Below are positions 1,335 to 51,656 of a DNA stretch of 64,000 nucleotides, one piece after another; position 1 is the first letter of the stretch; each line of letters begins with the position of its first letter. Source of the DNA: Butyrivibrio fibrisolvens. GTDB lineage: Bacteria; Bacillota; Clostridia; Lachnospirales; Lachnospiraceae. Under the pieces are notes generated by a model, which worked only from the letters and a program-made list of their open reading frames with translations, was not told where the DNA came from and did no database searches. The position numbers were made by a program, and so were the translations under genes. The stretch covers positions 2,294,001 to 2,358,000 of the forward strand of contig NZ_CP065800.1 of NCBI RefSeq assembly GCF_023206215.1, in the 5' to 3' direction.

Positions 1335-1632
1335 TCAAACTTCGCACTTGCCAAACATACGCCACCCTCTGAGGCAGAGCCAATGCAGCCCGTTTATAAT
1401 ACATTTTCGTATCTTGAATGTGTTATAATTCAGGGCAAGATATCTGGATCTTTATATTCTAGGGTCCAAACTCGCTTCGCTCAGACAGGTGGACCCTAAG
1501 AAGAATATAAAGATCCAGATATCTTGCTCCTGAATTTAATAACACCTTCAAAAGATACGAAAATGTATTATAAACGGGCTGCATTGTCTCTGCCTCAGAG
1601 GGTGGTGTATGTTTGGCAAGTGCGAAGTTTGA
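1335..1632. repeat. Long palindrome family 1, copy 1 (about 298 bp)
   Basis: The left arm from TCAAACTTCGCACTTG pairs with the right arm ending CAAGTGCGAAGTTTGA, and the pairing continues inward with few interruptions to the inner stem GGGTCCA/TGGACCC at about 1462-1496. The loop region holds AAACTCGCTTCGCTCAGAC. The core and termini recur in other copies (32055, 48143, 51405), but the middle of the arms here has a different sequence. No coding potential is seen. Confidence 0.85.
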
Positions 1633-1864
1633 ATAAATGAAATAAAAGGTAAAATAATTTCGAAGAAGATCTCGAAAAAAGATCTCGAAAAAAAGATGTG
1701 ACGTGTGCTTCTAATGATCCGTCTTATAGTTTAGAAGGGCAAAAAGCCGGAATAACATATTCGCAGTTTGCTGACGTTTTAATGATCTGTTATGAATGCG
1801 TCAGTAGTGCAGGCGATGAAACAAAAAAGTACAATTCCCCAACATGGGGGTGAGGAGGATTATT

Positions 1865-2929
1865 ATGAGGAAAATAAGAACAGGTTTTTTAGGAGCACTA
1901 ATTTTATCTTTTTCTATGATTCTATCAGGATGTGGAGGTACATCAGACAGCTCGTCCTATAATGCAAAGTCCGCAGGGGGCGATGCCAACTATGCGATGG
2001 AGAATGCTAATGATGAAGTTGCAATGTCAGAAGACTATGCTGAAGGCGATGTAGAAACGGAGACTGATGTAGAAGTAGATGAGTCATCGCAGGCTACTGA
2101 CAGGAAGCTTATCACTACAGTCAATATCAATTCTGAGACATTAAGCTTTGATGAGACTATATCCTGGATAGAAGCAAGGACTCTGGAGCTTGGTGGATAC
2201 GTTGAGAGCAGCAGTATATCTGTAAGTGGCAGTTATTACTATAGTGACAGATATGTGGATCTTCATACTGCAGACTATGTAATCCGTATACCTGAGCAGA
2301 AGCTTGAAGGATTCCTAACAGATGTTGATTCTAAGACCAATATCACATATAAGAGCAAGAACGTAGAAGATGTAACTCTTACATATACTGATATCGTAGC
2401 TCATCAGGATGCTCTTGAGGCAGAAAAAGAAGCTCTTGAAAAGCTTATGGAGAAGGCTGAGAACATGGAAGATATCATCACTATCCAGACTGAGCTAACA
2501 GATGTTCAGTACCAGATTGATTCCATCAAATCACAGCTTCGCGTATATGATAACAAGATCGATTACAGCACTATCAATATAAGCATTAAAGAAGTTGAGC
2601 CTGATAATCTCACTATTACTGAGAAGAAGACTGTATTCCAGAGGATAGGCGATGGATTTATGTCAAGCCTTAAGGGGACAGGTAACTTCCTTGTTGAGCT
2701 GTTCATAATCATCGTTGTCAACATCCCACAGCTTATACTTCTTGCAGCTATAATCATTGTTATAGTACTTATCGCTAAAAAAAGTATGAAGTCATCAGAA
2801 GAGAATAAGTCCAAGAAGAGATCGGGAGTTTTTAGTCGCAAAGATATAATCGATCCTATTGACGCGGTTAATAGTCAGGAAGGTGACAATTACCAGAATG
2901 ACAGCGATGGTCAGAAGGATAAGAAATAA
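1865..2929 (+). CDS. DUF4349 domain lipoprotein
   Basis: Predicted surface lipoprotein of 354 residues. The start at 1865 is chosen because GAGGAGG lies 6 nt upstream; an ATG 7 codons earlier has no such site. A signal peptide ends in a lipobox (ILSGC). After a Ser/Glu-rich linker, the DUF4349 region (residues about 75-270) includes a coiled-coil stretch, followed by one strong membrane helix near residues 276-306 and a Lys/Glu-rich cytoplasmic tail. An anchor at both ends is typical of the family. Function unknown. It stands alone between a long palindrome and a GntR regulator. Confidence 0.8.
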   Translation: MRKIRTGFLGALILSFSMILSGCGGTSDSSSYNAKSAGGDANYAMENANDEVAMSEDYAEGDVETETDVEVDESSQATDRKLITTVNINSETLSFDETISWIEARTLELGGYVESSSISVSGSYYYSDRYVDLHTADYVIRIPEQKLEGFLTDVDSKTNITYKSKNVEDVTLTYTDIVAHQDALEAEKEALEKLMEKAENMEDIITIQTELTDVQYQIDSIKSQLRVYDNKIDYSTINISIKEVEPDNLTITEKKTVFQRIGDGFMSSLKGTGNFLVELFIIIVVNIPQLILLAAIIIVIVLIAKKSMKSSEENKSKKRSGVFSRKDIIDPIDAVNSQEGDNYQNDSDGQKDKK

Positions 2930-3013
2930 AGATAAGAATAAGCGATTTAGTTGTTCTTAGTAGAAAGATATTCATGATTTGGAATGCAGATTGATACAGA
3001 GGAAAGGCGACAG

Positions 3014-3709
3014 ATGGAAGAGAAAAGATCGTCCCGTGACATTGTTACAGCTCGCATTACCGAAATGATATTAACAGGCCAGCTCAAGCCTGATGACCAG
3101 CTCCCTCCGGAAAGGGAGCTGGCTCAAAGTATGGGCATCAGTAGAAAGCTTTGTTCGGATATAATAAAAGAACTTGAAAGAAGAGGACTTCTTGTCGTAG
3201 TGCCGCGGCAGGGAGTCTTTGTCAATGATTTTAGACATAATGGCAATATCTATACCCTTGAGGCTCTTATGAATGTGCAGCTCGAACTTCAGCCCCAAGA
3301 GATCCGATCGCTTCTTGAATTCAGATGGGCTATGGAACTACTTGCCTGTAAGCGTGTCATCGAGACTGCCAGTGACCAAGAGATAGCAGACCTTGGCCAT
3401 ATGCTTGATAAAGTGCTGGATTCAGGTTCTGCAGAGGAAGCGGCTTTATGTACCTACGAGTATTATCACAAGCTGGCAGTTCTAAGCGGCAATTCAATAA
3501 TCCCCATGACTACACTTGGTTTTAAAACATCTACGATTAAGCTTTGGCAAAGGTATGTTAATAATTTTGGCATATCACAGCTTTATAAGAGCCTTGCCCA
3601 GGTCTATTTTCATATCAGACAAAGGGATTTTGAGGGAGTCTTTAAACAGCTATCAAAATCCACAACTGAGACTATTAGCGGAGATTACAGTATCTATAAA
3701 GATCTGTGA
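3014..3709 (+). CDS. GntR family transcriptional regulator, FCD (FadR-like) type
   Basis: A winged helix-turn-helix domain (residues about 5-75, with the family's LPPERELAQSMGISRK signature) is followed by an all-helical FCD ligand-binding domain. The start at 3014 is preferred to 2984 because AGGAAAGG sits 6 nt upstream. FCD regulators usually sense small organic acids, and many act on a neighbouring catabolic operon. No such operon adjoins here, so the target is unknown. It is 231 residues long, normal for the family. Confidence 0.85.
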   Translation: MEEKRSSRDIVTARITEMILTGQLKPDDQLPPERELAQSMGISRKLCSDIIKELERRGLLVVVPRQGVFVNDFRHNGNIYTLEALMNVQLELQPQEIRSLLEFRWAMELLACKRVIETASDQEIADLGHMLDKVLDSGSAEEAALCTYEYYHKLAVLSGNSIIPMTTLGFKTSTIKLWQRYVNNFGISQLYKSLAQVYFHIRQRDFEGVFKQLSKSTTETISGDYSIYKDL

Positions 3710-3740
3710 CGATCATGCATAAAGTGACGTAAAAAAGTAC

Positions 3741-3770
3741 TTGAAATGCCTTTTATTTTAGCGTTAAAAT
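3741..3770 (+). promoter_or_regulatory. Putative sigma-A promoter for the DUF1846 gene
   Basis: TTGAAA at 3741, an 18-nt spacer and TAAAAT at 3765, about 120 nt before the start codon of the DUF1846 gene. Confidence 0.55.
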
Positions 3771-3888
3771 GTGTTCTTGTATTGCATAGTTATGTAATAG
3801 CTGACTTCTTTTTTTCATAACACATCATATGTGTATAAAAAGTTATTCCGTAGGTATTGGTACAACTAAACAGGTAGGAGATTCTTAT

Positions 3889-5373
3889 ATGAACAAGATA
3901 GGTTTTGACAATGACAAGTATCTTAAAATGCAGAGTGAGCAGATTCGCAAGCGTATAAGCGAGTTTGGCGGCAAGCTTTATATGGAATTTGGTGGTAAGC
4001 TTTTTGATGATTTCCACGCTTCCAGAGTACTTCCCGGCTTCCATCCTGACAGTAAGATCACTATGTTAAAAGAACTTAAGGATCAGGCTGAGATCGTTAT
4101 TGCTATCAACGCTGCAGATATCGAGAAGAACAAAGTAAGAGGCGATCTTGGTATCACTTATGATATGGACCTTTTAAGACTTGCTGATGCATTCCGCGAG
4201 GAAGGTCTGTATGTTGGATCTGTTGTTCTTACAAGATTTGCAGAGCAGCCTTCTGCCATAGCTTATGAGAAAAAACTCAAAGCACTTGGTCTTAAAGTAT
4301 ACAGACACTATCCTATTGAGAATTATCCTTCTGATATATCACTTATCGTTAGTGACGAAGGTTTTGGTAGAAACGATTATATCGAAACAACTCATCCACT
4401 TGTTGTCATCACAGCTCCGGGACCAGGAAGCGGCAAGATGGCTACATGCCTGTCACAGCTCTATCATGAGAATAAGAGAGGTGTGAAGGCCGGATATGCC
4501 AAGTTCGAGACATTCCCTATCTGGAACCTTGCTCTTAATCACCCTGTAAACCTTGCATATGAGGCAGCAACAGCTGACCTTGATGATGTTAACATGATAG
4601 ATCCTTTCCATCTTGAAGCTTATGGTGAGACTACAGTTAACTACAATCGTGACATAGAGGTATTCCCTGTACTTAATGCTATGTTTGAGAAGATCTCCGG
4701 AAGCTCACCATACAAGTCTCCTACAGACATGGGAGTTAACATGGCCGGCAATTGCATCTTTGATGATGAGGCTGTATCAGCAGCTGCTAATCAGGAGATC
4801 ATCAGAAGATACTATCAGGCTCTTTGCGAATATCGTAAAGGTAATGCCGGAATGGAACCTGTCCGCATCATAGAGCTTCTTATGAATAAGGCAGGAATCT
4901 CACCTGCTGACAGACCTGTTGTTGCAGCAGCTAATCTTAAAGCAGAGCAGACCGGCGGCCCGGCAGCAGCTATGGAACTTCCTGATGGCAAGATCCTTAC
5001 AGGTAAGACATCTGTTCTACTTGGAGCATCTTCAGCTCTTCTTATCAATGCACTTAAAGAGCTGGCAGGAATAGAAGACAGTGTAGAACTGATCCCTCCG
5101 GATTTCATCGAGCCTATCATGAAGCTCAAGAGTGACTGCCTTGGAGATCATTCTTCACTTCTTCACCTTAATGAGATCCTTATCGCGCTGTCAGTGACAG
5201 CTGTTAATAATGAGAATGCAAGAAAAGCTCTTGAGCATATCCCGGATCTTAAGGGATGCGAAGCACACAGCTCAGTTATCCTGTCACAGGTTGATGAGAC
5301 TGTATTCAAGAAGCTTGGTGTGAACCTTACATGCGAAGCGCATTACGAGAGCCAGAAGCTCTATCATAAATAA
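3889..5373 (+). CDS. DUF1846 domain-containing protein
   Basis: A 494-residue soluble protein matching DUF1846 along its whole length (KIGFDNDKYL start, GFGRNDYIETT). The start at 3889 has AGGTAGGAG upstream and gives the family's normal length; an in-frame ATG at 3829 has no binding site. A glycine-rich loop at about residue 178 (TAPGPGSGKMATCL) resembles a P-loop. Structures are known for this family, but its reaction is not, to my knowledge. It has its own promoter, and a strong hairpin follows at 5396. Confidence 0.85.
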   Translation: MNKIGFDNDKYLKMQSEQIRKRISEFGGKLYMEFGGKLFDDFHASRVLPGFHPDSKITMLKELKDQAEIVIAINAADIEKNKVRGDLGITYDMDLLRLADAFREEGLYVGSVVLTRFAEQPSAIAYEKKLKALGLKVYRHYPIENYPSDISLIVSDEGFGRNDYIETTHPLVVITAPGPGSGKMATCLSQLYHENKRGVKAGYAKFETFPIWNLALNHPVNLAYEAATADLDDVNMIDPFHLEAYGETTVNYNRDIEVFPVLNAMFEKISGSSPYKSPTDMGVNMAGNCIFDDEAVSAAANQEIIRRYYQALCEYRKGNAGMEPVRIIELLMNKAGISPADRPVVAAANLKAEQTGGPAAAMELPDGKILTGKTSVLLGASSALLINALKELAGIEDSVELIPPDFIEPIMKLKSDCLGDHSSLLHLNEILIALSVTAVNNENARKALEHIPDLKGCEAHSSVILSQVDETVFKKLGVNLTCEAHYESQKLYHK

Positions 5374-5395
5374 ATGAAATAGCTAGTCTTGGGGG

Positions 5396-5437
5396 ATTCC
5401 TGGGACTGGCAGTTTATAAACTGCCAGCCCCAGGAAT
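5396..5437 (+). terminator. Strong palindrome after DUF1846 gene, probable terminator
   Basis: An almost unbroken 42-nt palindrome: ATTCCTGGG, one unpaired base, CTGGCAGTTTA, then the complement back to CAGGAAT. Only three T follow, so it may also be a transcript-end or processing hairpin. Confidence 0.5.
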
Positions 5438-5469
5438 TTGCATGATTTAGATTTAGTTGAGGTTGGAAT

Positions 5470-5889
5470 ATGCTGGTACATAATGAAGAAGATTTTAAGT
5501 ATATAATGCAGGATTTTGAAAAATATTATATTGGAGCTAGATATAGCTATGATGAGCTTATGTCTTCGAATTTTGTGCCATTTAAGCTTAAAACCATCAT
5601 TGAAAAGTATATAGCTAAGGATATTGATAAGAGTGCTACGCTTGAAAGCCATTTTTATTTTATGACAGATGAAGGCTTTGATTATAGAGTATGCAGACAG
5701 CTTCGACTAAGACTTCGCTGCTCAGTTCTTGCAAGCCCTCATGTGGACGGCGTAGAAGATAAGTATACTGAAAAAATATATCCTATAGATAAGCTTGTGA
5801 AGTTATCTTCACAGGATAAGATGGATAAGGGGCTGGTGATAAGAGAACTTATAATTGGTAAGCTGTCCCTTTTGATGTTCCAGGTGTAA
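5470..5889 (+). CDS. Hypothetical protein, possibly 3' frameshifted
   Basis: A 139-residue protein I do not recognise, rich in Tyr, Asp and Lys, with no signal peptide or membrane segment. Another frame takes over near the end: if one A were added at GGTAAGC (about 5860), the text would read on as ...IGKAVPFDVPGVKLL and stop near 5923. That continuation looks more protein-like than the present last residues (SLLMFQV). So the 3' end may have lost one base. No neighbour suggests a function. Confidence 0.5.
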   Translation: MLVHNEEDFKYIMQDFEKYYIGARYSYDELMSSNFVPFKLKTIIEKYIAKDIDKSATLESHFYFMTDEGFDYRVCRQLRLRLRCSVLASPHVDGVEDKYTEKIYPIDKLVKLSSQDKMDKGLVIRELIIGKLSLLMFQV

Positions 5890-6016
5890 AGCTTTTGCAA
5901 TATTATAAACTGGTGATAGTAATAGGATAATGAAACTTTGTTTGATGTAGTGGAAGCTATGTCGGATGAAGTTTCTTTTTGATTAAGATATGCTAAAACT
6001 TATACAGCTAATCCAA

Positions 6017-6045
6017 TTGACAGGTGTACTGCAAAATGCTATATT
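6017..6045 (+). promoter_or_regulatory. Promoter of hicAB
   Basis: TTGACA at 6017, 17-nt spacer, TATATT at 6040: a near-consensus sigma-A promoter placed just ahead of the toxin-antitoxin pair. Confidence 0.75.
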
Positions 6046-6047
6046 GT

Positions 6048-6062
6048 AACTATAAAATAGTT
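6048..6062. promoter_or_regulatory. Palindromic operator candidate for HicB
   Basis: AACTAT-AAA-ATAGTT lies directly after the -10 box, where bound antitoxin would block transcription. HicB has a ribbon-helix-helix-like C-terminus, and self-repression through such palindromes is usual for the family. The assignment is by inference. Confidence 0.55.
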
Positions 6063-6107
6063 GCAAGAGGAATTGCTGTGCCAAAAAAATCCTAATTACT
6101 AGAAAAA

Positions 6108-6338
6108 TTGTTATCAAAACCTGCACCAACAAGTTTTACAATCAGGGAACTTGATACACTCATGAAACAGTGCGGTTGTGAAAAGTTTGAGGGTGGAAGA
6201 GGATCTGGAATAGGTTACTATCATATTGAAACCAAACGCATCATTCAATTTGATGGACCACACCCAGGCAATGAGCTATACAGGTATCATGTAAAGATGA
6301 TTATAGCGTTTTTAAAGGAAGTAGGTGAGATTGGATGA
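6108..6338 (+). CDS. hicA: HicA-family toxin, natural start region interrupted
   Basis: HicA toxins are small mRNA-cleaving proteins with a double-stranded RNA-binding-like fold and a key His. Seen here: the GRGSGIGYYH segment with that His, and the QFDGPHPGNELYRYHV tail. The frame can start at TTG 6108, but the better start is GTG 6078, which has AGAGG 7 nt upstream; between them is one in-frame TAA at 6093 (the text reads MPKKS-stop-LLEKLLSKP). A single G to T change from GAA would explain it. The toxin is therefore either silenced or translated weakly from TTG. The stop overlaps hicB by 4 nt. Confidence 0.7.
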   Translation: MLSKPAPTSFTIRELDTLMKQCGCEKFEGGRGSGIGYYHIETKRIIQFDGPHPGNELYRYHVKMIIAFLKEVGEIG

Positions 6339-6682
6339 TAAGTTCGTTGATGGAATATAATGGATATCACGCAAAGGTAGAATTTGATCAGGAAGATCAG
6401 ATTTTTATTGGACACGTTCTTGGAATAAATGACTCTTTAAATTTTCATGGAGAGTCAGTAAAAGAGCTTACTCAGTCCATGCATGACTGTATAGATAATT
6501 ATCTTGATTACTGTCAAAAGATTGGAAAAGAACCTGAACGTGAATATAAAGGGACTTTCAATGTAAGAATTAAACCAGAGCAGCATAAGAAAATTGCATT
6601 GTATGCTGCTAATGAAGGAATCACTATAAATCAGTTTGTTTCAAGAGCTATTGATGATGAGCTGAAAGTTCTTGAAGGCTAA
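6335..6682 (+). CDS. hicB: HicB-family antitoxin
   Basis: 115 residues. The N-terminal HicB fold (YHAKVEFDQEDQIFIGHV, then the FHGESVKELTQSMHDCIDNY helix) binds the toxin, and the C-terminal half (about residues 75-112) reads as a ribbon-helix-helix DNA-binding domain. It overlaps hicA in an ATGA arrangement, so the pair is translated together. The antitoxin is intact while the toxin start is damaged, the pattern expected when a toxin-antitoxin locus decays safely. Confidence 0.85.
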   Translation: MISSLMEYNGYHAKVEFDQEDQIFIGHVLGINDSLNFHGESVKELTQSMHDCIDNYLDYCQKIGKEPEREYKGTFNVRIKPEQHKKIALYAANEGITINQFVSRAIDDELKVLEG

Positions 6683-6736
6683 ACGATTTGGCGATGTTAT
6701 AATAAAACATCAAAAGTATGATGATTAATATAAATA

Positions 6737-6785
6737 AAAGCGGCAATCAGATAGCGCAAAAACGATATTTGATTGCCGCTTTTTA
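6737..6785 (+). terminator. Rho-independent terminator after hicAB
   Basis: AAAGCGGCAATCA pairs with TGATTGCCGCTTT and is followed by T's. The loop is about 20 nt. Confidence 0.8.
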
Positions 6786-6914
6786 GAAGTTGCAAACAAG
6801 TCTCTTTCATGCTAACATTTTAATGTTCTTAAAGTTCTGAAAATATCTGAGGCATATCTGCCAGACATTTCAGCATTTAAGATTAAAAATCTAGCATAAG
6901 AAATGCTAAAATTA

Positions 6915-6943
6915 TTGACAACCGGCAGGATATACCCTAAAAT
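6915..6943 (+). promoter_or_regulatory. Probable recA promoter
   Basis: TTGACA at 6915, 17-nt spacer, TAAAAT at 6938. It lies about 235 nt before recA, giving a long leader with a terminator-like hairpin. I saw no clear GAAC-N4-GTTC type LexA box around it. Confidence 0.65.
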
Positions 6944-7050
6944 AAATCATGTGATCAATGTGGCAGGAGATGATTTTATCGCATTATCACTGGATTTCAT
7001 TAGTTATATCATTAGTACATAGAATTACAGTCATGCAATTCTAAATATGT

Positions 7051-7100
7051 ATAGGATGCGTTTTTTGATCCTGTACATAGAAGTACATCCTATATTTTTT
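7051..7100 (+). promoter_or_regulatory. Terminator-like hairpin in the recA leader
   Basis: ATAGGATG at 7051 pairs with CATCCTAT at about 7086-7093 and is followed by six T's. It sits between the promoter at 6915 and recA, so it could act as an attenuator, or mark the end of a small leader transcript. Confidence 0.5.
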
Positions 7101-10678: not shown

Positions 10679-10725
10679 AATTGAAACATAAGTTTAGAAT
10701 CAAAACAGATAGGAGCTGGAAAATT

Positions 10726-13329
10726 ATGTCTTTTAGTAAACATACAAATTTGATTTGTATCATAATTACTATCCTGACTGTTCTTCTGACTGCCTTATTT
10801 ATGAATGCCGAGAGACTGGGCGTAAGTGTAGTTACTTCTGATGTGTCGGCAGATGAAGAGGGTATTTTTTCAGATAGAGATCTTGATCCGTCCTATACGG
10901 AAGCGACAGCTGTATATATAGATCTTAGTGATATTGATGGATATACAAGTGGCGGTGCATATGAGCTTGATGGAGATCTGTATATAGTTACAGCTGGTAC
11001 CTATGTACTTAGCGGAGAACTTGAGAATCAGCAGGTGATCGTAAATGCATCAGATGCCAAGGTTCAGATCGTTCTTGACGGCGCTACTATAACCAATGAG
11101 TCTCTTCCTGGAATATACGTAGCGGCAGCTGACAAGGTATTCATAACACTTGAAGAAGGATCAGATAATGTAGTGTCATCGTATGATCTTAGCTCAGAAG
11201 CTGCAATAGCAGCGGACGTTGATGCGGCGATATTCGCTTCTTGTGATCTTACAATAAATGGATCAGGTTCTCTTACTGTAGCAGCAGAAGGCGGACATGG
11301 TATAAAGAGTAAGGATGATCTGGTAATAACAGGAGGATCGATCACTGTTACAGCAGATGACAATGCACTTCTTGGCAAAGACTCGGTTCGTATATGTGAT
11401 GGTACCTTCAATCTGACATCGGGTAATGATGGCATTAAAGCCAATAACACTTCGGATGAAGACAAGGGATATGTGACTATAACAGGCGGCGATTTCACGA
11501 TAGTAGCTGATCATGACGGAATATCTGCAGTTACGGATGTTAATATATCTGGTGGAAGCTTCGATATCACAACAGGTGGTGGATATGAAAATGGGGCTTC
11601 GCATACTGATGAGATGGCTATGGGCGGCATGAGAGGCCAGATGCAAGGTATGGGCAGTACAGATGGGCAGATGCCGGATGCCGGAAGTTGGTCATCTGAT
11701 GAAGATACTGAAGATGCAGATAGTGAAGTAACAGAAGACGAGATGCCACAGGAAGGCGGAGAAACACCTGATATGAGCGGTGAGATGCCGCAGGCAGGCG
11801 GAGAAGCGCCTGATATGAGCGGTGAGATGCCGCAGGCAGGCGGAGAAGCACCTGATATGAGCGGTGAAATGCCGCAGGCAGGTAGTGATACACTTGATAT
11901 GAGTGGTGAAGATGCCGCAGGAGAAGGCGATGGATCATCTGGCGCAGATGCGGCGATTGAACCAGGTACCTCGGAAGTGGCAGATACAGCAGGTACAGAT
12001 ACAAATTCAGCAGATATAGAAACAGCGGATACAGAAACAACAGATTCAGATACTACAGGTGATGATACAACAGAAGAATCAGATAGCTATAAAGGTATCA
12101 AAGCCGGTAATAGCATCACTATATCCGGTGGAACCTTTAATATTAACAGTAGTGATGATGCAATCCACAGTGATGGAGATGTTCTTATATCCGATGGTGA
12201 TATTACTATATCCACCGGTGATGATGGCATACATGCAGAGAATCAGGTAGATATTGAAAACGGTACTATAGTAATAGAGACAAGCTATGAAGGCATAGAA
12301 GGTTATTATATCTATATCTACGACGGTGATGTAAGTGTAACAGCTACTGATGATGGTATGAACGCCGGAGGCGGCTCTGATACATCGACTATGATGATGG
12401 GCGGCGCAGGCATGGGCGGCATGGGTGGCCGTGGCATGAACGCAGGTTCCGGTGCTCAGATGGCTCCTAATACAGATGGAACAACTATGCAGAACGGGTC
12501 TCAGAACACAGATGTTACAACAGATCAGAATGTATCGCAGGATGCAGATACTTCAACAGAACAGGATGCAGATGGTGCAACTGACCAGAATGCATCACAG
12601 GGTGCAGATGCTACAACTGACCAGAATGCATCACAGGGTACAGATGCTGCAACTGATCAGAATATGCCAGAAGGTGCAATGCCTAGTGGAAATACTGAAG
12701 AAGCAGCTAGTAGCAGTGACTCTGATACTGATAATACTACAACAACTACTACACAGATCCAGTGTCTGGCGATCTATGGTGGCAATATATATGTCAATGC
12801 AGCAGGCGATGGTCTTGATTCCAACGGAGACCTTATCATCTATGGCGGCAACGTGATCGTAGACGGACCTGAGAATGGCGGCAATGCAGCACTTGATTCC
12901 GGAACTGAGAGCGGCGGCGAACTGATCGTCAATGGCGGAACAGTTATAGCTCTTGGAAGTACTGGAATGATAGAAGCATTCTCAGATAACTCTGAGCAGA
13001 ATTCATTTATAGTTACTATCGAAAGCGGCTATGAATCAGGAGATACTATAACGATAACAGATGCAGAAGGCGCTGTGATCTACGAATACACAGCTGCAAA
13101 GAGCGGTAATGCAGTGATATTCAGTAGTGAACAGCTTACCATTGGAGAGACCTATACTGTTACGGTTAATGAAGAAACACAAGAGATAACACTTGACTCA
13201 GTATGCTCTGGGGATGCATCTTCTACAGGATCATCCATGGGTGCTCCCATGGGAGGTGGAATGGGCTCTCGAAACGGCGGACAGATGGGAACTCAGCAAA
13301 GCTCCGGTGAATCTCAAAGCGATAATTAA
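10726..13329 (+). CDS. Secreted beta-helix carbohydrate-binding protein (Cthe_2159/DUF4353 family)
   Basis: An 867-residue exported protein. The ATG at 10726 (AGGAG upstream) gives a clean signal/anchor helix; the alternative TTG at 10681 would add a hydrophilic tail. Repeating short turns with TISGG, GSLTV and HSDGDV-like steps mark a right-handed parallel beta-helix, a fold known in a pectin-binding Clostridium protein. It is interrupted by two low-complexity inserts: one with three near-identical 17-residue repeats (GEMPQAGGEAPDMS type), one rich in Thr/Asp/Gln with ATTDQNASQG units. The tail is Gly/Met/Ser-rich. Third gene of the VTC operon. Confidence 0.82.
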   Translation: MSFSKHTNLICIIITILTVLLTALFMNAERLGVSVVTSDVSADEEGIFSDRDLDPSYTEATAVYIDLSDIDGYTSGGAYELDGDLYIVTAGTYVLSGELENQQVIVNASDAKVQIVLDGATITNESLPGIYVAAADKVFITLEEGSDNVVSSYDLSSEAAIAADVDAAIFASCDLTINGSGSLTVAAEGGHGIKSKDDLVITGGSITVTADDNALLGKDSVRICDGTFNLTSGNDGIKANNTSDEDKGYVTITGGDFTIVADHDGISAVTDVNISGGSFDITTGGGYENGASHTDEMAMGGMRGQMQGMGSTDGQMPDAGSWSSDEDTEDADSEVTEDEMPQEGGETPDMSGEMPQAGGEAPDMSGEMPQAGGEAPDMSGEMPQAGSDTLDMSGEDAAGEGDGSSGADAAIEPGTSEVADTAGTDTNSADIETADTETTDSDTTGDDTTEESDSYKGIKAGNSITISGGTFNINSSDDAIHSDGDVLISDGDITISTGDDGIHAENQVDIENGTIVIETSYEGIEGYYIYIYDGDVSVTATDDGMNAGGGSDTSTMMMGGAGMGGMGGRGMNAGSGAQMAPNTDGTTMQNGSQNTDVTTDQNVSQDADTSTEQDADGATDQNASQGADATTDQNASQGTDAATDQNMPEGAMPSGNTEEAASSSDSDTDNTTTTTTQIQCLAIYGGNIYVNAAGDGLDSNGDLIIYGGNVIVDGPENGGNAALDSGTESGGELIVNGGTVIALGSTGMIEAFSDNSEQNSFIVTIESGYESGDTITITDAEGAVIYEYTAAKSGNAVIFSSEQLTIGETYTVTVNEETQEITLDSVCSGDASSTGSSMGAPMGGGMGSRNGGQMGTQQSSGESQSDN

Positions 13330-31850: not shown

Positions 31851-31852
31851 TA

Positions 31853-32054: not shown

Positions 32055-32351
32055 TTCAAACTTCCCACTTGGACGATACAGCATCTCCAAAGGATTTGCA
32101 GGGACGTGCTGTATATAGATCATTGCCATGCGGTTAATCGTTTTATACTTCATGGCACGATAGCCGGATCTTTTCATTCTGGGGTCCAAACTCGCTGCGC
32201 TCAGACAGGTGGACCCCTTGCAGAATGAAAATCTCCATCTATCATGCTCATGAAGTTAATAAAACGATTAAAAAGCATGGCAATGATCTATATACAGCCC
32301 GTCCCTGCAAATCCTTTGAAGACGTTGTATCGTCCAAGTGGGAAGTTTGAA
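32055..32351. repeat. Long palindrome family 1, copy 2 (about 297 bp)
   Basis: Ends TTCAAACTTCCCACTTG and CAAGTGGGAAGTTTGAA pair, the arms pair inward nearly throughout, and the core is GGGGTCC-AAACTCGCTGCGCTCAGAC-...-GGACCCC. Here the loop has CTGCG for the usual CTTCG. It lies between the tRNA-Leu and a truncated permease gene. Confidence 0.85.
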
Positions 32352-34782: not shown

Positions 34783-34882
34783 ATTAACCTTATGTCGCGA
34801 GCAAAGAGAGCAGCTAAATTGTTTGAATTGGTAGAGCTCGCGACACCAATTTGGGTTTGAAAGTGGAACACTTTCAAACTTT
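34783..34882 (+). repeat. Short repeat family 2, copy a
   Basis: About 100 bp: TTAACCTTATGTCGCGAG, a variable middle, AGCTCGCGACACCAATTTGG, then the perfect hairpin GTTTGAAAGTG-GAA-CACTTTCAAAC and a T-rich tail. Copy b at 41057 is over 75% alike by eye. GTCGCGAG and CTCGCGAC form a second stem. Confidence 0.75.
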
Positions 34883-34978
34883 ATCTTAAAAAAATAGCAT
34901 CGTTTATTCTAGCGTAAAAACTAAATTAGATGGTTTATATCCTTGTAATTTATTAATGAAATATTAATATGTCTTTGA

Positions 34979-41056: not shown

Positions 41057-41156
41057 TTAACCTCATGTCACGAGCTAAGCGAGTGGCTAATGGTTCAAAT
41101 TGATGGAGCTCGCGCCATCAATTTGGGTTTGAAAGTGGAACACTTTCAAACTTTTC
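41057..41156 (+). repeat. Short repeat family 2, copy b
   Basis: TTAACCTCATGTCACGAGC ... GAGCTCGCGCCATCAATTTGG, then the same perfect GTTTGAAAGTG-GAA-CACTTTCAAAC hairpin as copy a, and a T-rich tail. Placed between mgtE and the next promoter region. Confidence 0.75.
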
Positions 41157-41358
41157 TTTGCAAAAAGGATATGATGAAGACTTCTGCGTTTTTTGTATAA
41201 AATATCAATAATATATTCTACCAAAAACAAACGATATTGTGATAAAATATTTATGTGATCATTATACAGTCGGTATATAAGAGGCTGTCATATTTGTATT
41301 AACTTTGGTATCCATCAACATGTCTATGGGAGTTAGTTGCTCCCGGAACGGAGAAGTG

Positions 41359-45189: not shown

Positions 45190-45216
45190 TAATAGAAATG
45201 CAAAAAGGGGAATGAT

Positions 45217-46689
45217 ATGACGGATAGAGCAAAAGTGATCTTTGGTAACGAAATGCCGGAGAGGACTTACAAAAGTGCTGTAAAGTCTAAGATAAAAAAT
45301 GCCGCTAAATACGGCGATGATTCAAATGCCTCATATGATGTGAAGATAGTAGACAATCCATATATAGGCCCGTCTCTTGGAGTATCGGATATAAGAGTTA
45401 ATGAAGGTAGCGGCGATACTTCTTTTGACCTTGAAAAAGGAATCATCGTAGGCAACATAAGAATGGGATTTGGCCATTACAGAATCTCTATGGCGATGGC
45501 TTCAGCGGCCAAGGCTCTTGGATACAAGCCTTACTGGCTGGATCTTAATTCTTTTCCTGCAACAACTTGTACCAAGCTTATAGGAGGCCAGAACGAGCTG
45601 TATTCACTTGGATCAAGGCTTTCTAAGAATCCGGTGTTCAATAAGCTTGTATGGGAACCTGTCAACTATGAGCTGTTCAGAAGACTGTCCTATAACTGCT
45701 CAGATCAAAAGAACGCTGAGCTTATGGCGCCGGTTTACAAGAATATACCAAAAGAAATACCTGTTATAGGAACCCATGTATGGCCTGCTCAGGCGGCTAT
45801 ACATGCAGGAATGAAGTATGTTGTCAATGCAATACCGGATAACTGGCCTATGGCACTTCACTTATCTGAAGGCAGCGTACATACGATCCAGACTCATAAT
45901 TCATACCAGGGCTACAGGATCCTTAATGGAATGAATGGCAAGAAGACCTGTAATCCGATGCCGGATCAGGCACTTGTCTATACTGGACATTATATTGATC
46001 ATGAGCTTGTCTCTAATATAGAAAAAGACTGCCAGGCCAGAATCGATAGAAAAAAGAACGGAAAACCTGTAAGATTCCTTCTTACAATTGGAGGAGCAGG
46101 CGCTCAGAAAGAAATCTTTGCAGGTATCATAAAGCATCTGCTTCCTGCTATTGAGAAAGGCAGGGCTGCCTTATACGTCAATGTTGGCGATTACAGGAAT
46201 GTGTGGGATGAACTTTTAAATGAGATCCCGGGAATGAGAGCATGTGTATCAGAGCATATGAATAACTGGGAAGACACAGAGGATTTTGCTGCTAAGGCGC
46301 TTGATCCTGCAAACGATATAACAGGTATTCATGGATTCTATCATGAGAACATATTTGAAGCTGTATATGCGACCAACCTCCTTATGAGAAGTTGTGACGT
46401 GCTTGTTACCAAGCCTTCAGAGCTGGCGTTCTATCCAGTTCCAAAGCTCTTTATCAGAAGAGTAGGCAAGCATGAGATGTGGGGAGCTATCCACTCTGCT
46501 GAAGTAGGCGATGGAACACTTGAGTGCCGTGATATGGGACATACGGTGCAGATGCTGGATATGTTCCTTTGGGACGAACACTTCCTTGAAAATATGTGCA
46601 TGAATATCGTAAGTAATAAGAAAGCCGGTCTTTATGACGGTGCTTATAATGTAGTCAAAATAGCCATGGGGCTTAAAAGAGAGGATTAA
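45217..46689 (+). CDS. GT-B fold protein, putative glycosyltransferase (DUF6938-like)
   Basis: 490 residues, soluble. GIIVGNIRMGFGHYRISMAMASAAKALGY has the GxGH start of MGDG-synthase/MurG-type GT-B enzymes, and the second half has RFLLTIGGAGAQKEIFAGI and the donor-like segment CDVLVTKPSELAFYPVPKL. AAAAGGGG precedes the ATG. The gene is fixed between a GH2 and a GPH transporter, so it may be a phosphorylase or transferase acting on the same glycan. The actual substrate is unknown. Confidence 0.65.
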   Translation: MTDRAKVIFGNEMPERTYKSAVKSKIKNAAKYGDDSNASYDVKIVDNPYIGPSLGVSDIRVNEGSGDTSFDLEKGIIVGNIRMGFGHYRISMAMASAAKALGYKPYWLDLNSFPATTCTKLIGGQNELYSLGSRLSKNPVFNKLVWEPVNYELFRRLSYNCSDQKNAELMAPVYKNIPKEIPVIGTHVWPAQAAIHAGMKYVVNAIPDNWPMALHLSEGSVHTIQTHNSYQGYRILNGMNGKKTCNPMPDQALVYTGHYIDHELVSNIEKDCQARIDRKKNGKPVRFLLTIGGAGAQKEIFAGIIKHLLPAIEKGRAALYVNVGDYRNVWDELLNEIPGMRACVSEHMNNWEDTEDFAAKALDPANDITGIHGFYHENIFEAVYATNLLMRSCDVLVTKPSELAFYPVPKLFIRRVGKHEMWGAIHSAEVGDGTLECRDMGHTVQMLDMFLWDEHFLENMCMNIVSNKKAGLYDGAYNVVKIAMGLKRED

Positions 46690-48116
46690 TGATTATGGAT
46701 AACAAAAAACTAAGTGCGGTTGAAAAAGCCGGTTATGGACTGGGGGCAGTCGGTAAAGATATGGTATATATGCTTTCTGCCAGCTATGTACTGTATTATT
46801 TCCAGGATGTTATAGGTGTTAATGCTTTTGCAATGGGAATTATACTTCTTGTAGCCAGAGTATTTGATGCTTTTAACGATCCTATCATGGGTGTTATCGT
46901 TGCTAAGACCAAGACCAAATGGGGAAAGTTTCGCCCATGGCTTCTTATCGGTACACTTACTAATGCAGTAGTTCTTTTCCTGATGTTCGCTTGTCCGCCT
47001 AAACTTGATGCTGCAGGTCTTACGGCATGGGCAGCAGTGTTCTATATCCTGTGGGGCGTTACCTATACCATGATGGATATCCCTTACTGGTCAATGATCC
47101 CTGCGTTTACAGAAGGTGGCAAAGAGCGTGAAGGCCTTACTACACTTGCCAGAAGCTGCGCAGGTGTTGGATCTGCTATTACAACGATCTTCACAATGCA
47201 GCTGGTACAAAAGCTTGGATCACAATTTTCAGCAAGTCAGTCAGCCAAGGATATTGAGAGAATTGGTTTCATGATCCTTGCAGGTGTTGTAGGTGTTTTA
47301 TTTGTATTATTCATCGTAATTACCTGTGTTACTATTAAGGAAAAATCTACTGTTGATATGAAAACAGCTTCTGTTGGCGAGATGTTCTCAGCTCTTCTTA
47401 AGAACGATCAGGCAATGGCAGCAGTAATCACCATAGTACTTGTGAACTCGGCACTTTATATCACATCTAACCTTGTTATATATTTCTATAAATATGACCT
47501 TGGCGGTGTGACCTGGTATGATGACTATACTCTGTTCAATATGGTGGGCGGAGGATCACAGATCCTTGCTATGATGTTCCTGTTCCCATTCCTTAGAAAA
47601 TTCATGACAAGTATCAAGATATTCTATGTAAGTATTGGAATGTCTCTTGTAGGATATATTGTGATCCTTGCAGTAGCTATGTCAGGCGCTGGAGTTGCTC
47701 CTATATACCTTATCCCTGGTGTACTTGTTATGGCAGCAAGTGGTGTTAACAACGTACTTATCACGATCTTCCTTGCCAATACTGTAGACTACGGCCTTGT
47801 TAAGCTTGGCAGAAGCGATGAGAGTGTTATCTTCTCTATGCAGACCTTTGTAGTTAAACTTGCAAGCGGTATCGCTGCGTTTGTAGCTTCAGTTGCACTT
47901 GGAATCTTTAATTTAAGTGATGCTGCTACAACGGAAGAAGAGCACAATATCGACTTCTCACTGGCAGTTCCGGAAAGCGCTAAGATGGGCCTTCGTATGA
48001 TAATGACTCTTATTCCTATAGCACTTCTTGTAGTCGCTTTCTTCTGGTTCCGTAAGAAATATATACTTACTGATGAGAAGATGGAAGAGCTTGCTCAGCA
48101 GAAAAAGAATCTGTAA
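46689..48116 (+). CDS. GPH (glycoside-pentoside-hexuronide) family sugar transporter
   Basis: 475 residues, 12 membrane helices, MFS fold. The GPH marks are present: GAVGKDMVYMLSASYVLYYFQDV at the start, RVFDAFNDPIMGVI, then KWGKFRPWLLIG. The start overlaps the previous stop by one base, so the genes are coupled. MelB-type cation symport of a glycoside is likely. There is no IIA-like tail. Confidence 0.92.
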   Translation: MIMDNKKLSAVEKAGYGLGAVGKDMVYMLSASYVLYYFQDVIGVNAFAMGIILLVARVFDAFNDPIMGVIVAKTKTKWGKFRPWLLIGTLTNAVVLFLMFACPPKLDAAGLTAWAAVFYILWGVTYTMMDIPYWSMIPAFTEGGKEREGLTTLARSCAGVGSAITTIFTMQLVQKLGSQFSASQSAKDIERIGFMILAGVVGVLFVLFIVITCVTIKEKSTVDMKTASVGEMFSALLKNDQAMAAVITIVLVNSALYITSNLVIYFYKYDLGGVTWYDDYTLFNMVGGGSQILAMMFLFPFLRKFMTSIKIFYVSIGMSLVGYIVILAVAMSGAGVAPIYLIPGVLVMAASGVNNVLITIFLANTVDYGLVKLGRSDESVIFSMQTFVVKLASGIAAFVASVALGIFNLSDAATTEEEHNIDFSLAVPESAKMGLRMIMTLIPIALLVVAFFWFRKKYILTDEKMEELAQQKKNL

Positions 48117-48142
48117 CACAAAAACTAAATTATAGTTTGATG

Positions 48143-48424
48143 GCACAACGTCCTCGAAGACATCGTGGGGGTATGTACCCTCAAGCATACAGAATACAAC
48201 TTATTGCCACGCTTTAATCATTTTATAAATTCATGGCATGCTATCTGGATATTTTTATTCTGGGGTATGAAACTCGCTTCGCTCAGACATGCAGACCCCG
48301 GGCAGAATAAAAATCTCCATCTAGCATGCTCATGAATTTTATAAAATGATAAAAAGCGTGGCAATAATTTGTATTCTGTATGTTTGAGGGTACATGCCCT
48401 ACGATGTTTTCGGGGACGTTGCAC
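48143..48424. repeat. Long palindrome family 1, copy 3 (about 280 bp)
   Basis: Outer pairing AACGTCC / GGACGTT, then arms with GCATACAGAATACAA / TTGTATTCTGTATG and TAATCATTTTAT / ATAAAATGATAA, inward to TTTTTATTCTGGGGT ... CCCCGGGCAGAATAAAAA. The core AAACTCGCTTCGCTCAGACA is kept; the inner stem is GGGGT/ACCCC here. Confidence 0.85.
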
Positions 48425-48681
48425 TGGTTATGTGGGGGCTTTTTTGGGGGTATGGATATACCTTGAATGTTACAATGAAACTATAAATAATATGACTAAA
48501 TAAAAAGTCAAAATACTATATAACGCGCATTTATATATTATATAAAGTGAAATGTGGTATAATGATATAGGCGTCACATATAATTCTGTAACTTGCCGGA
48601 TTGCCTTGCTTATAATCCGGTGATGGCGCTAAAGTGATGGTGTTGTTAATCTATTCAAAAACTATTTCGGAGGGTATTAGA

Positions 48682-49644
48682 ATGTTTTGTGGAAATTGTG
48701 GAGCACAGGTTCCGGACGGATCTGGCGTATGCCCTAATTGCGGAGCACAGATGGCGCCAAAATCTCGGACTCAGGATCCCGTACAGAGTGCGCAGTATCA
48801 GAATAATCAGTATCAGAATCCTCAGGGAGTATCAACAAGCCAGACAGGTGCAGAAGACGGCTCCTCCAAGAAGATAAGTGGTAAGCTTATAGGTATTATA
48901 TGCGCCTGCGTAGCTGTTGCAGTACTTGCTATTGTTTTAGTGTTTGTTCTTGGTGGTAGTGGCGGACCTAAGGGAGCTTATACGAACGGAGAGTTTATTG
49001 CTGTCTTTGAGAAAGGTCGTATGAGCTATACTTTTTCCGGTATGGAGATGTCTTTTAAGTACACCCAGAAGAAAGACCAGATAATCGTTGATCCTGAATC
49101 AATGGAGCTTTCAGATAATTTCTGGGAAGTTGTAGCTGATTCTTTAGATATCGATGAGGATGAACTCGAAGACTCTCTTGAAGAAATGGCAGAATACAGT
49201 GAGTATGGCGAGGCTTTGTATGATGCATACAAAGATGACGATATGGATGCACTTATAGAGATGTTACTCGAAGAAATGGATGTTGATGAAGATGAGTTTA
49301 TCTATGTCTATGACAAGAAAGCCAATACTCTGAAGAATAAAGAGACAAAAGAAAAGTTGTTCTATGCACAGCAGTACAAGGAAGGCCCAAGTGGCAAGTA
49401 TACAAACAAAGATGATGATGACATCACCATGACCTTCAAGAATGGCACTGTTACATATGACAATGATGGTGATGACGAAGAGTTTAGTTACTATGTATAT
49501 GTCGATAAAAAAGATGTATATGTTCTGTTCTACGGACAGGAATTTGATGAGTCTGATTTCTATGAAGAAACTTATGTGAGCAGTTTTTCATTTAATGCCA
49601 AGAAAGATAAGTTTACTATTGGCAGTACAGATTATAAGAAGTGA
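48682..49644 (+). CDS. Zinc-ribbon single-pass membrane protein (paralogue 1)
   Basis: 320 residues from ATG 48682 (CGGAGGG upstream). Zinc ribbon CGNC ... CPNC, a Gln/Asn-rich linker, one membrane helix (about 89-112, IGIICACVAVAVLAIVLVF), then an outside acidic beta-rich domain. That part holds two copies of a motif like GAYTNGEFIAVFEKG / GKYTNKDDDDITMTFKNG, so it is a tandem of two lipocalin-like repeats. Function unknown; 36% or so like its neighbour by eye. Confidence 0.75.
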   Translation: MFCGNCGAQVPDGSGVCPNCGAQMAPKSRTQDPVQSAQYQNNQYQNPQGVSTSQTGAEDGSSKKISGKLIGIICACVAVAVLAIVLVFVLGGSGGPKGAYTNGEFIAVFEKGRMSYTFSGMEMSFKYTQKKDQIIVDPESMELSDNFWEVVADSLDIDEDELEDSLEEMAEYSEYGEALYDAYKDDDMDALIEMLLEEMDVDEDEFIYVYDKKANTLKNKETKEKLFYAQQYKEGPSGKYTNKDDDDITMTFKNGTVTYDNDGDDEEFSYYVYVDKKDVYVLFYGQEFDESDFYEETYVSSFSFNAKKDKFTIGSTDYKK

Positions 49645-49674
49645 TCATGTTTATATCTGAATAGTTATAATGTG

Positions 49675-49717
49675 CGGTATAAAGGCATTTAGACTCTGGT
49701 GCCTTTATACCGTTTTT
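49675..49717 (+). terminator. Rho-independent terminator
   Basis: CGGTATAAAGGCA / TGCCTTTATACCG with six T's: a perfect 13-bp stem. Confidence 0.93.
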
Positions 49718-49814
49718 TGTGGTTATTATGTAGCGTCGCAGTTGCCTTTGTATGTGATATATGGTAAAGTATGAAAGATTGAAAAAAAGTATTACTCAAA
49801 TGGAGGAGAAAAGC

Positions 49815-50666
49815 ATGTTTTGTGGAAATTGTGGAACACAGGTACCTGAAGGAGCATCTACATGTCCTAACTGCGGAGCAGCAATGGCACCAAAGTCTCA
49901 GGCTCAGCAGATGAATCAGGCACTTCAGAATGCAGGTCAGAGCCTGAATGCAGCAGGAACTAAGGCTAAGGATGTTGTCAAGAAACTTGACAACAAGCAG
50001 CTTGGCATGATCGGCGCAGGTATTGTTGCTGTTATCGTAGTTATCTTTATCTTAAAGGCAATCTTTGGAGGAAGTGGATTAAAGGGCACTTACACTAATG
50101 GTTATACAACTATGACTTTTGAAGGCAGCAAGATAACATTTAACATGATGGGCGTAGAGTTTACTGCCAAGTACAAGGTTAAAAAGGACAAGATCGTATT
50201 AGATTCAAAGTCTATTGCATTTACACAAGAAGCTCTTGATTATTTTGAAGATGAGCTTGATATGGATGAGGATGATATCCAGGATGAGCTTGACGATCTT
50301 GTAGATGATATGGAAGATGATCCATCTGCAAGCTACAAGTATGACAAGAAGAAAAAGGTCCTTACTATGGACGGAATAGAATATTACTATGCAGAGAACT
50401 ATAAGGTAGGACCAAACGGAACATATGTTTCTGATGACGCAGAAGATGTAACACTTACATTCAAGAATGGCGAACTTACATATGATAATGATGGTGATGA
50501 TGAGACATTATCCTATTATTGCTATGATGATGGCCATGATGTATATGTTGTATTCTATGGCTTAGAGTTCGAAGATTCCGAATTCTATCACACATATTAC
50601 ACATCAAGATTTGAGTTTGATGATGATGAAATTGAGATTAATGATATCACTTTCGAGAAAGAGTGA
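49815..50666 (+). CDS. Zinc-ribbon single-pass membrane protein (paralogue 2)
   Basis: 283 residues from ATG 49815 (GGAGGAG upstream). It has the same plan as its neighbour: MFCGNCGTQVPEG zinc ribbon, linker, one helix (MIGAGIVAVIVVIFILKAIF) and two outside repeats starting LKGTYTNGYTTMTFEG and GPNGTYVSDDAEDVTLTFKNG. The pair arose by tandem duplication, each with its own terminator. The fold recalls DUF5640-like domains. Confidence 0.75.
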   Translation: MFCGNCGTQVPEGASTCPNCGAAMAPKSQAQQMNQALQNAGQSLNAAGTKAKDVVKKLDNKQLGMIGAGIVAVIVVIFILKAIFGGSGLKGTYTNGYTTMTFEGSKITFNMMGVEFTAKYKVKKDKIVLDSKSIAFTQEALDYFEDELDMDEDDIQDELDDLVDDMEDDPSASYKYDKKKKVLTMDGIEYYYAENYKVGPNGTYVSDDAEDVTLTFKNGELTYDNDGDDETLSYYCYDDGHDVYVVFYGLEFEDSEFYHTYYTSRFEFDDDEIEINDITFEKE

Positions 50667-50686
50667 TCTATATTTTAGGAAATGAA

Positions 50687-50722
50687 AGTTTGAAAGTGTT
50701 CCACTTTCAAACCCAAATATAC
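50687..50722 (-). repeat. Short repeat family 2, copy c (hairpin end only)
   Basis: AAGTTTGAAAGTG-TTC-CACTTTCAAAC-CCAAAT is the exact reverse complement of the 3' end of copies a and b. Confidence 0.75.
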
Positions 50723-50736
50723 TCTTAAGACATGAT

Positions 50737-50784
50737 AAAAGGATGCCGCTATTGCAAAAAAGCAATCAAGTGGCATCCTTTTTT
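50737..50784 (+). terminator. Rho-independent terminator of paralogue 2
   Basis: AAAAGGATGCC / GGCATCCTTTTTT with an inner ATTGC/GCAAT stem. Confidence 0.85.
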
Positions 50785-50935
50785 GTGTGCTTTAGATGCA
50801 AATGTTCATTGTAAATGTCATAGCAGCATTACTTGACGAAAGCGCAAAAGCATTGAGCCAGGCAGGAAGTGCATTTTTGAAAAAAGTGGCTGGATTAGTT
50901 TTGGCGATGAATACTTAAATTGGTAGTGAATTTTC

Positions 50936-51268
50936 TTAAACCAGAATGTCGATGTTTTGTCCAATTGTATTGTAGGAGTTTCCTGTTCCTTTGGATCCGT
51001 ACCCAGTTATGCTGCCATTAAAAGACTTGGCAACTTCATTGAACATAGCACTGGCTTTGGTGGGATCTAGTTTCTTGGTGATCTTCTGAGCATTGGGATA
51101 TCCGACAGGACTTACAGGGTCAATAGTACCAGATACTTCTGATGGTTTTTGTACAGACTGTGCATATGCAGATGATACCTCGGAATTATTGGTAAGGGCA
51201 TAATTAAGAGGCTGAGTAAAAGAAACACTGCTATATGCACGCATTGCTTTTATAGCTCCAACTGCCAT
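50936..51268 (-). CDS. Hypothetical small protein
   Basis: 110 residues with AAAGGA upstream of the ATG on the minus strand and a plausible TTGCTT-16-TATTAT promoter behind it. Ser/Asn/Thr-rich, no signal peptide, no Cys. The middle (SVQKPSEVSGTIDPVSPVGYPNAQKI) is Pro-rich and unstructured; the end (FNEVAKSFNGSITGYGSKGTG) is glycine-rich. I do not recognise a family. It stands alone between repeats. Confidence 0.6.
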   Translation of the reverse strand: MAVGAIKAMRAYSSVSFTQPLNYALTNNSEVSSAYAQSVQKPSEVSGTIDPVSPVGYPNAQKITKKLDPTKASAMFNEVAKSFNGSITGYGSKGTGNSYNTIGQNIDILV

Positions 51269-51404
51269 ATTCCTAGTCCTTTCATTTTGAAAAAAGAAAC
51301 GATATGACGACTATTTCTATAATAACATAACGACAGCAAAAAGCAAGTAGGCATACCTATGACCAGTCAAACTTCGACTGGTGAGTTGGCTTGATCATTG
51401 AGTC

Positions 51405-51656
51405 GCGGTATACTCGAAGACTTTGCCGAGGCTGGCGGAATATAAAACATTGCCGCGCTGTTAATTGTTTTATAAATTCATGGCATGATATCTGAAGCTT
51501 TTTATTCTGGGGTCCAAACTCGCTTCGCTCAGACATGTGGACCCCTGGCAGAATAAAAAGCTCCATCTATCACGCTCATGAATTTTATAAAACAATTAAA
51601 TAGCGCGGCAATGTTTTATATTCCGTCAGTCTCGGCAAAGTTTTCGAGTATACCGC
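51405..51656. repeat. Long palindrome family 1, copy 4 (about 252 bp)
   Basis: GCGGTATACTCGAA pairs with TTCGAGTATACCGC, GGCGGAATATAAAACATTGC with its complement, TTAATTGTTTTAT with ATAAAACAATTAA, and the core GGGGTCC-AAACTCGCTTCGCTCAGACA-TGTGGACCCC is kept. A small separate palindrome, GACCAGTCAAACTTCGACTGGT, lies just outside at 51361. Confidence 0.85.

Follow-up and report, generated by a model that had tools for sequence, protein, structure and literature searches.

What are the four very long palindromes that lie within a 64,000-nucleotide stretch of the Butyrivibrio fibrisolvens genome (positions 2,294,001 to 2,358,000 of contig NZ_CP065800.1; this whole stretch is referred to here as the window), and what keeps their arms complementary as their sequences change? 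The original prediction, made from the letters of the window, described them as one family of hairpins with a fixed core and co-varying arms, could name no known insertion sequence (IS) or miniature inverted-repeat transposable element (MITE) that they fit, and listed a large structured RNA among the possible explanations. Our analysis points, with a probability of roughly 0.7, to a non-autonomous MITE-like transposable element in which the whole 300-bp body is a single quasi-palindrome and the two arms change together via template switching.

The four palindromes are real, with inverted arms of 47-81 nt that are 88-98% complementary, and all are read on the + strand, the orientation of copy 1 being taken from its loop, AAACTCGCTTCGCTCAGAC. 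Copy 1 (1334..1631) has arms at 1335-1415/1552-1632 (81 nt, 98% complementary in a repeat search of the window), an exact match to the invariant loop core at 1468..1486 and, from flank comparison, the target duplication AATAAATGA on its left (1325..1333) and right (1632..1640), to which no strand is assigned. Copy 2 (32055..32351) ends in TTCAAACTTCCCACTTGG and CCAAGTGGGAAGTTTGAA and pairs over 77 nt (32055-32131/32275-32351, 95% complementary); its loop core at 32188..32206, recovered by a mismatch-tolerant search, is the variant AAACTCGCTGCGCTCAGAC, with one G. Copies 3 (48143..48424) and 4 (51405..51656), recognised by inverted repeat and core, have decayed ends; their arms span 48169-48215/48353-48399 (47 nt, 94% complementary) and 51405-51471/51590-51656 (67 nt, 88% complementary), with exact cores at 48270..48288 and 51516..51534. 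Inner arms of 26-27 nt are additionally detected by the repeat search in three of the four copies. The fixed core that had been proposed holds for copies 1, 3 and 4, which share the loop AAACTCGCTTCGCTCAGAC, and not for copy 2, and the tip stem attributed to every copy is imperfect in copy 3 (GGGGTATG / CATGCAGACCCC). No frame of at least 80 aa is present inside the four copies in the list of open reading frames of the window.

A search of the whole genome, which had been proposed together with the prediction, reveals about 93 hairpin copies, the window's four included, and extends the family to congeners. The home genome (G000; 4.45 Mb in two contigs, C1 and C2) contains 55 exact cores and no match to the reversed pattern; with up to 3 mismatches there are 97 places, and 87 for the reversed control, which is not clean at this tolerance because the core motif is nearly mirror-symmetric. 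After de-duplication 94 entries remain, of which 89 form clear quasi-palindromes, most of their arms measuring 120-150 nt or longer; the other five comprise two truncated views of copies counted elsewhere, a one-armed copy (L053), a partial one (L086) and a place with no hairpin (L079). Five places collapsed as identical around the core are also hairpins, and two of the five (L001 and L082) are a single locus read twice at the contig ends. The 16-nt core (up to 1 mismatch) occurs in seven of the 79 genomes of the genus, with 94 places in the home genome, 91 in G061, 11 in G102, 2 in G034 and 1 in each of three others, and a plasmid search matched one record, Butyrivibrio fibrisolvens D1 plasmid pNP243 (101618-101731). 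Identical sequence lies near both ends of each contig (C1:7659 / C1:4112472, L001 and L082; C2:16648 / C2:323173, L105 and L107), extends over 2.8 kb at the C1 ends, and probably represents assembly overlap of circular replicons.

The ends of the elements read CTCAAACTTCCCACTTGG inward and form inverted repeats of the CTCAAACTTCCCACTTG type, and young copies are flanked by AT-rich direct repeats of 8-10 bp. Of 89 rows, 11 have a direct repeat of 8 bp or more placed at equal offset from both ends, where 1000 shuffles of the right flanks among copies gave 0.5 on average and never more than 4; among the 36 rows whose ends are well kept, the number is 10. These repeats are AT-rich and abut the ends (TTATAAAA, TTAATAAA, TTATTTAC, TATTTAAT and AATAAATGA, for instance). 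The syntenic comparison for target duplication that had also been proposed was resolved for copies 1 and 2 of the four; both are absent from the syntenic sites in G061 and G102, where the flanks are 72-93% identical. The combination of inverted ends, target duplications and empty sites with ends that match an IS4-family element (see below) makes the hairpins MITE-like by their features, contrary to the view that they fit no known IS or MITE, and the gap in this assignment is that a matching transposase was not found in the home genome. In six of 63 copies taken from G061, G102 and G034, the sequence on either side matches a home-genome locus, in a comparison that took in only loci whose surroundings had been extracted. 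Some shared sites are occupied by a different subfamily or by a short remnant, so turnover is high. At three places (L079 vs L214, L072 vs L195 and L006 vs L164) one intergenic spot just past a gene end holds different subfamilies in the sister genomes; such swaps suggest preferred targets.

When 2 mismatches are allowed, the home genome has 92 sites for the 18-mer at the end of the hairpins (reversed control 0), some of which are short palindromes of 30-80 bp with the same ends and no core; two of these, L096 and L104, carry duplications of their own as judged by eye. The same 18-mer forms inverted ends 1.64 kb apart in the congeners G028 and G007, where the element encloses a single 475-aa frame that contains DDE domains (Pfam) and matches the IS4-family model NF049925 of NCBIfam at 565 bits (cut-off 250). 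Diverged relatives that are 45-51% identical have CTAAAACTTCCCAC and CTTAAACTTCGCAC ends, in parallel to the end variants of the hairpins, and a relative in G067 has TTAATAA on both sides. Judged from their sequence, the ends are IS4-type; a transposase of this type may have moved the hairpins in trans and since been lost from this genome. Two loci whose end spacing marked them as possible autonomous copies of 1.3-1.4 kb (L087 and L126) were rejected, as the enclosed frames do not look transposase-like by eye, no family search having been made on them.

The arms were compared over 87 copies, leaving out L079, L086, L053, the two copies with an arm insert (L009 and L060) and the two truncated duplicates. 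Between left and right arm, 11352 of 12491 aligned cells are Watson-Crick, 185 are G.T, 292 A.C and 662 other, and at 75-125 nt from the loop the positions are about 85-99% paired, yet all four pair types are common. The claim that mid-arm changes are matched on the opposite side is thus confirmed well beyond the window. Outer arms have a median identity of 94% to the partner arm, 82% to the best other copy and 60% to a typical copy, and the partner is the closest in 65 of the 87 copies (a tie in 3, lower in 19). In two young subfamilies some changes sit in both arms of one copy and the sisters retain the old pair; counted by hand over element columns, with flank columns excluded, 11 paired cells (7 columns) face 33 one-arm cells in the subfamily of 7 copies, and in that of 8 copies 8 paired cells (7 columns) face 24 one-arm cells. 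In L014, each end shows the same replacement of three adjacent bases, TTG by CCC. Three sites shared with G061 were compared (one of which, L078/L201, has a flank match on one side only); their 319 homologous pairs include 15 that changed in both arms and are still paired, 35 that changed in one arm and 3 that changed in both and are unpaired, the paired/one-arm counts per site being 6/17, 7/2 and 2/16; by our estimate, independent change would yield about 1 paired change among the 319. Arm changes without compensation, which the prediction had held to speak against a conserved structure, do therefore occur at these sites, side by side with compensated ones. The paired changes call for a process by which one arm is copied onto its partner. 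Of the two forces that had been named as keeping the fold, selection or gene conversion, the fold is indeed kept while the sequence changes, and gene conversion from arm to arm is the better option.

Template switching perfects quasipalindromes in E. coli (PMC7202029) and has been proposed to maintain hairpins (PMC8794818). In the hairpins described here, replication would switch template between the arms and rewrite one from the other (quasipalindrome correction), which explains the concerted arms better than selection on an RNA does. The same fold would also give rise to tip deletions that leave short mini-palindromes behind. A 47-bp remnant in the window (5391..5437, no strand assigned) consists of joined outer arms whose centre is lost; the orthologous site in G061 holds a full hairpin (L173) with the same outer arms, and the join lies at a TTTATAAA repeat common to both arms. 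Tip deletion of this kind is therefore a route by which mini-palindromes can arise. The window also contains a probable decayed copy on the minus strand (55253..55453), which lacks the core and was recognised by the similarity of its outer arm and ends.

Several of our results weigh against this reading, both in its transposition part and in its correction part. A matching transposase is found in 13 of the 79 genomes of the genus, with 0 matches in the home genome and G061 at E 1e-3, and G061 nevertheless carries its 91 cores; moreover, the hairpins and the IS share only about 17-18 bp, and the subterminal repeat of the IS is, by eye, not shared. In 22 of the 87 copies the partner arm is not the single closest match, some other copy being as close or closer. 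The inner 60 nt contain fixed asymmetries (a 3-4 nt bulge past the first stem, a TC/TC mismatch and extra right-arm bases) that recur in most copies of the home genome and G061, and that pure arm-to-arm correction should erase. These asymmetries need either selection on the inner part or a particular geometry of switching; in the subfamily of window copy 1 the TC/TC mismatch has been lost, and the right arm now equals the left. The right outer arm of L135 looks mosaic by eye, so that exchange between copies seemingly occurs and is not separable everywhere from correction. Finally, wobble counts vary with zone and species. In de-duplicated counts over three species, with positions 23-25 excluded, G.T outnumbers A.C at 100-160 nt (285 vs 158), and beyond 75 nt the G.T/A.C counts are 161/66 in G061 and 35/14 in G102.

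This last excess bears on the idea that the arms are held together by purifying selection on a transcribed hairpin RNA (a 3' end, a stabiliser or a regulatory RNA) through compensatory mutations, an idea that would also account for the conservation of the loop and of the inner asymmetries. Genes lie close by: where a predicted gene is directed towards an element, its end falls no more than 50 bp from the nominal edge in 62 of 95 cases (median 15 bp), as against 25 of 83 for genes directed away (median 141 bp). The bcr1-bcr18 repeats of Bacillus cereus are often found in untranslated regions (PMC3446304). However, the flanking genes of 90 elements are evenly oriented (>E> 26, <E< 23, >E< 22, <E> 17 and ?E< 2, where E is the element), the outer arms of the home genome contain 156 G.T and 165 A.C, and nearer the loop the three-species preference is the opposite one (A.C 164 vs G.T 22 at 0-50 nt; 139 vs 93 at 50-100 nt). 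The G.T excess is located where pairing decays, and the tip stems found in other phyla (see below), which were chosen by score, include 786 Watson-Crick, 2 G.T, 10 A.C and 32 other cells. The wobble counts are thus unsupportive of an RNA, and not decisive. Paired changes also separate copies that differ at few sites. Rfam gave no match at the gathering threshold over the whole window and 12 foreign loci, and none in E-value mode for one window copy and one foreign locus; sRNA-Xcc1, said to be spread across many taxa, was considered as a candidate and had no Rfam match in the stretches searched. With gene orientation unbiased and wobble preference inconsistent, the large structured RNA that had been suggested is unsupported, and selection on a transcript seems to us very improbable.

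Ectopic recombination, by which members of the family would replace whole hairpins and so change both arms at once, has ample substrate in the roughly 90 copies present in each of two genomes, and could explain why the outer right arm of L135 is like that of another subfamily and why L162/L010 have differing inner stems at one site (both by eye). It is an unlikely account of the family as a whole in view of the 65 copies whose partner arm is closer than any copy compared, and of the paired changes that are private to a single copy among near-identical ones. Selection could instead act on a DNA cruciform or single-strand hairpin needed by the transposition machinery, such that only well-paired copies spawn progeny. 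The predominance of Watson-Crick pairing in the home genome is consistent with this, as is the loop, which varies little: its minus strand, GAGCGAAGCGAG, contains GCGNAGC, and the consensus 12-mer occurs in 132 of 153 hairpins of the genus, with 13 of the 21 others differing only at N (8 + 5, two other bases). One-arm mismatches are common, however, and the core-less mini-palindromes L096 and L104, with target duplications as judged by eye, argue that a long hairpin is unnecessary for insertion, which leaves this alternative quite unlikely as well.

The loop itself reaches far beyond the genus, which the prediction had not anticipated. In a collection of 84,980 species genomes the exact 20-nt loop AAACTCGCTTCGCTCARACA is present in at least 118 stretches from many phyla, where about 1 is expected by chance under uniform composition. 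Among the matches listed are Parabacteroides, Bacteroides, Sphingobacterium, Flavobacterium, Variovorax, Ralstonia, Noviherbaspirillum, Luteimonas and Sedimenticola, as well as several deltaproteobacterial groups, Selenomonas, many Lachnospiraceae, Gastranaerophilales and candidate-phylum bins. A search of viral contigs turned up the tip in 6 stretches. All of these at least 118 loci entered a stem test, in which 124 instances with enough flank (8 were without) reduced to 103 distinct tips; 89 of the 103 distinct tips listed have a stem directly around the loop; with the right sides shuffled, the number averages 4.2 and is at most 11. Several pair types occur at every stem position across 48 rows, whose selection for at least 7 of 8 paired positions overstates the pairing. 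The prediction had reasoned that a core occurring elsewhere without arms would undermine structural conservation; in other phyla the core does cap hairpins, some of them short-stemmed.

In a comparison that covered 80 of the at least 118 loci, a 3'-side bulge recurs by eye in the foreign tip hairpins, and the genes around 73 foreign instances show a mild skew (>E> 19, >E< 13, <E< 11, <E> 6, in-frame 19 and the rest 5). Counts per genome reach 64, 60, 41, 27 and 25 among 21 genomes searched, the reversed control of the second being 44. Among 150 genomes from the phylum to which Noviherbaspirillum belongs, 3 contain the tip, the source genome of the search being one of them; in the class of the home genome the number is 9 of 148, itself counted. 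The tip is therefore not general. In Arcicella, the 20 copies compared, out of 41, are a near-identical dispersed repeat with a stem of only 8 bp, so that the arm test is uninformative there and long arms are not general either. Neighbouring tips in inverted orientation form at least 9 pairs less than 800 bp apart in other phyla, with a distance of about 462 bp in Noviherbaspirillum. In Bacteroidota and Betaproteobacteria (L319, L309, L299, L333 and L389-L408), the tip hairpin frequently comes after a smaller one whose loop is of the CTTG type (e.g. GTTACTTTTGGCTTGATCCAAAAGTAACCAAAAA).

On the minus strand the tip reads GAGCGNAGCGAG. The heptamer GCGAAGC is an unusually stable DNA mini-hairpin that is mentioned in the literature on hairpins of this kind, and a role of the tip at the DNA level is plausible. 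We tentatively propose, as a possibility on which we would not yet rely, that AAACTCGCTTCGCTCARACA, borne by a Watson-Crick stem whose sequence varies freely, is a widespread and so far undescribed tip of DNA hairpins in bacteria. It would be found as a dispersed repeat in Bacteroidota, Pseudomonadota, Bacillota, deltaproteobacterial groups, candidate phyla and others, carried along by transposable elements and repeats that are unrelated to one another. It might be kept by something other than transposition and arm correction, acting on the DNA hairpin itself and common to its hosts, for example the nucleation of a cruciform with a compact GCGNAGC mini-hairpin or escape from hairpin nucleases; long arms would then grow and stay matched by template switching. 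Open papers searched by sequence and by description, a search that did not extend to subscription papers, yielded no description of the tip. The sequence matches to it that do occur in papers concern unrelated subjects by title, are probably primers, and were set aside.

Some further observations concern the arrangement of the hairpins and of other repeats. Seven convergent hairpin pairs, with cores 405-535 bp apart, are found in the home genome (C1:1106769/1107281, 1965437/1965842, 2207124/2207637, 2242761/2243216, 2262544/2263079, 2860921/2861454 and 3151525/3152010); nothing was found in support of their bounding a single larger element. Some hairpins contain a nested insert of about 50 nt that is itself foldable (e.g. 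TTACAGGATGTAACTGGACATGTATAGAAATACATGGATG...), namely L009 and L060 (left arm), L173 (loop) and L169. A second repeat family, AAGTTTGAAAGTGTTCCACTTTCAAACCC, adjoining a AATTGATG...CATCAATT stem, occurs in the window at 34853-34885, 41125-41157, 50686-50718 and 51842-51874; many similar places exist in G061 and G102, and it is possibly another small mobile hairpin. The frame at 10681-13329 contains tandem repeats at 11698-11907 (42-bp units) and 12465-12668 (36-bp units).

Compensatory change is usually taken as proof of a functional RNA. In the present family, compensatory changes abound among the roughly 90 copies in each of two sister genomes and bear signs of a DNA process, so that template switching as a cause of covariation can be tested here by counting in natural sequences. 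In addition, the presence of an exact 20-nt loop on stems that are unrelated from phylum to phylum points to a shared factor, of the hosts or of the elements, unnamed as far as our literature searches reach.

Among known systems, the IS4-family element of Butyrivibrio congeners (NF049925 type) shares with the hairpins its terminal inverted repeats of 17-18 bp and AT-rich direct repeats, which are 7-bp in the relative from G067; the hairpins differ in having no transposase gene, an unrelated body and no shared subterminal repeat that we could see. Like the bacterial MITEs bcr1-bcr18 (Bacillus cereus) and QMITE2 (Coxiella), they are short, non-coding, intergenic and foldable, with terminal inverted and direct repeats, and they are unlike them (PMC3446304, PMC10969869) in that the entire 300 bp is one palindrome with concerted arms and a cross-phylum tip. 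Repetitive extragenic palindromic (REP) elements of the GTAG and CGTC super-families are likewise palindromic, present in many copies in several phyla and often in inverted pairs. Compared with these (PMC3733652), the hairpins are about ten times longer (~300 bp vs 20-40 bp) and conserve the loop rather than the foot; they were rejected as REP elements because they have no unpaired terminal GTAG/CGTC tag, their termini being CTCAAACTT... The beta-proteobacterial repeat element (BRE) is a dispersed repeat of about 90 bp in Betaproteobacteria, including Polaromonas and Rhodoferax, that is often tandem (PMC3110155); it is set apart from the hairpins by this description and not by sequence. The closest parallel in mechanism is the correction of quasipalindromes by template switching, in which the arms of imperfect inverted repeats are made more similar by paired changes; it is known from mutational hotspots and RNA genes (PMC7202029, PMC8794818), and here it appears to extend across a whole family of elements.

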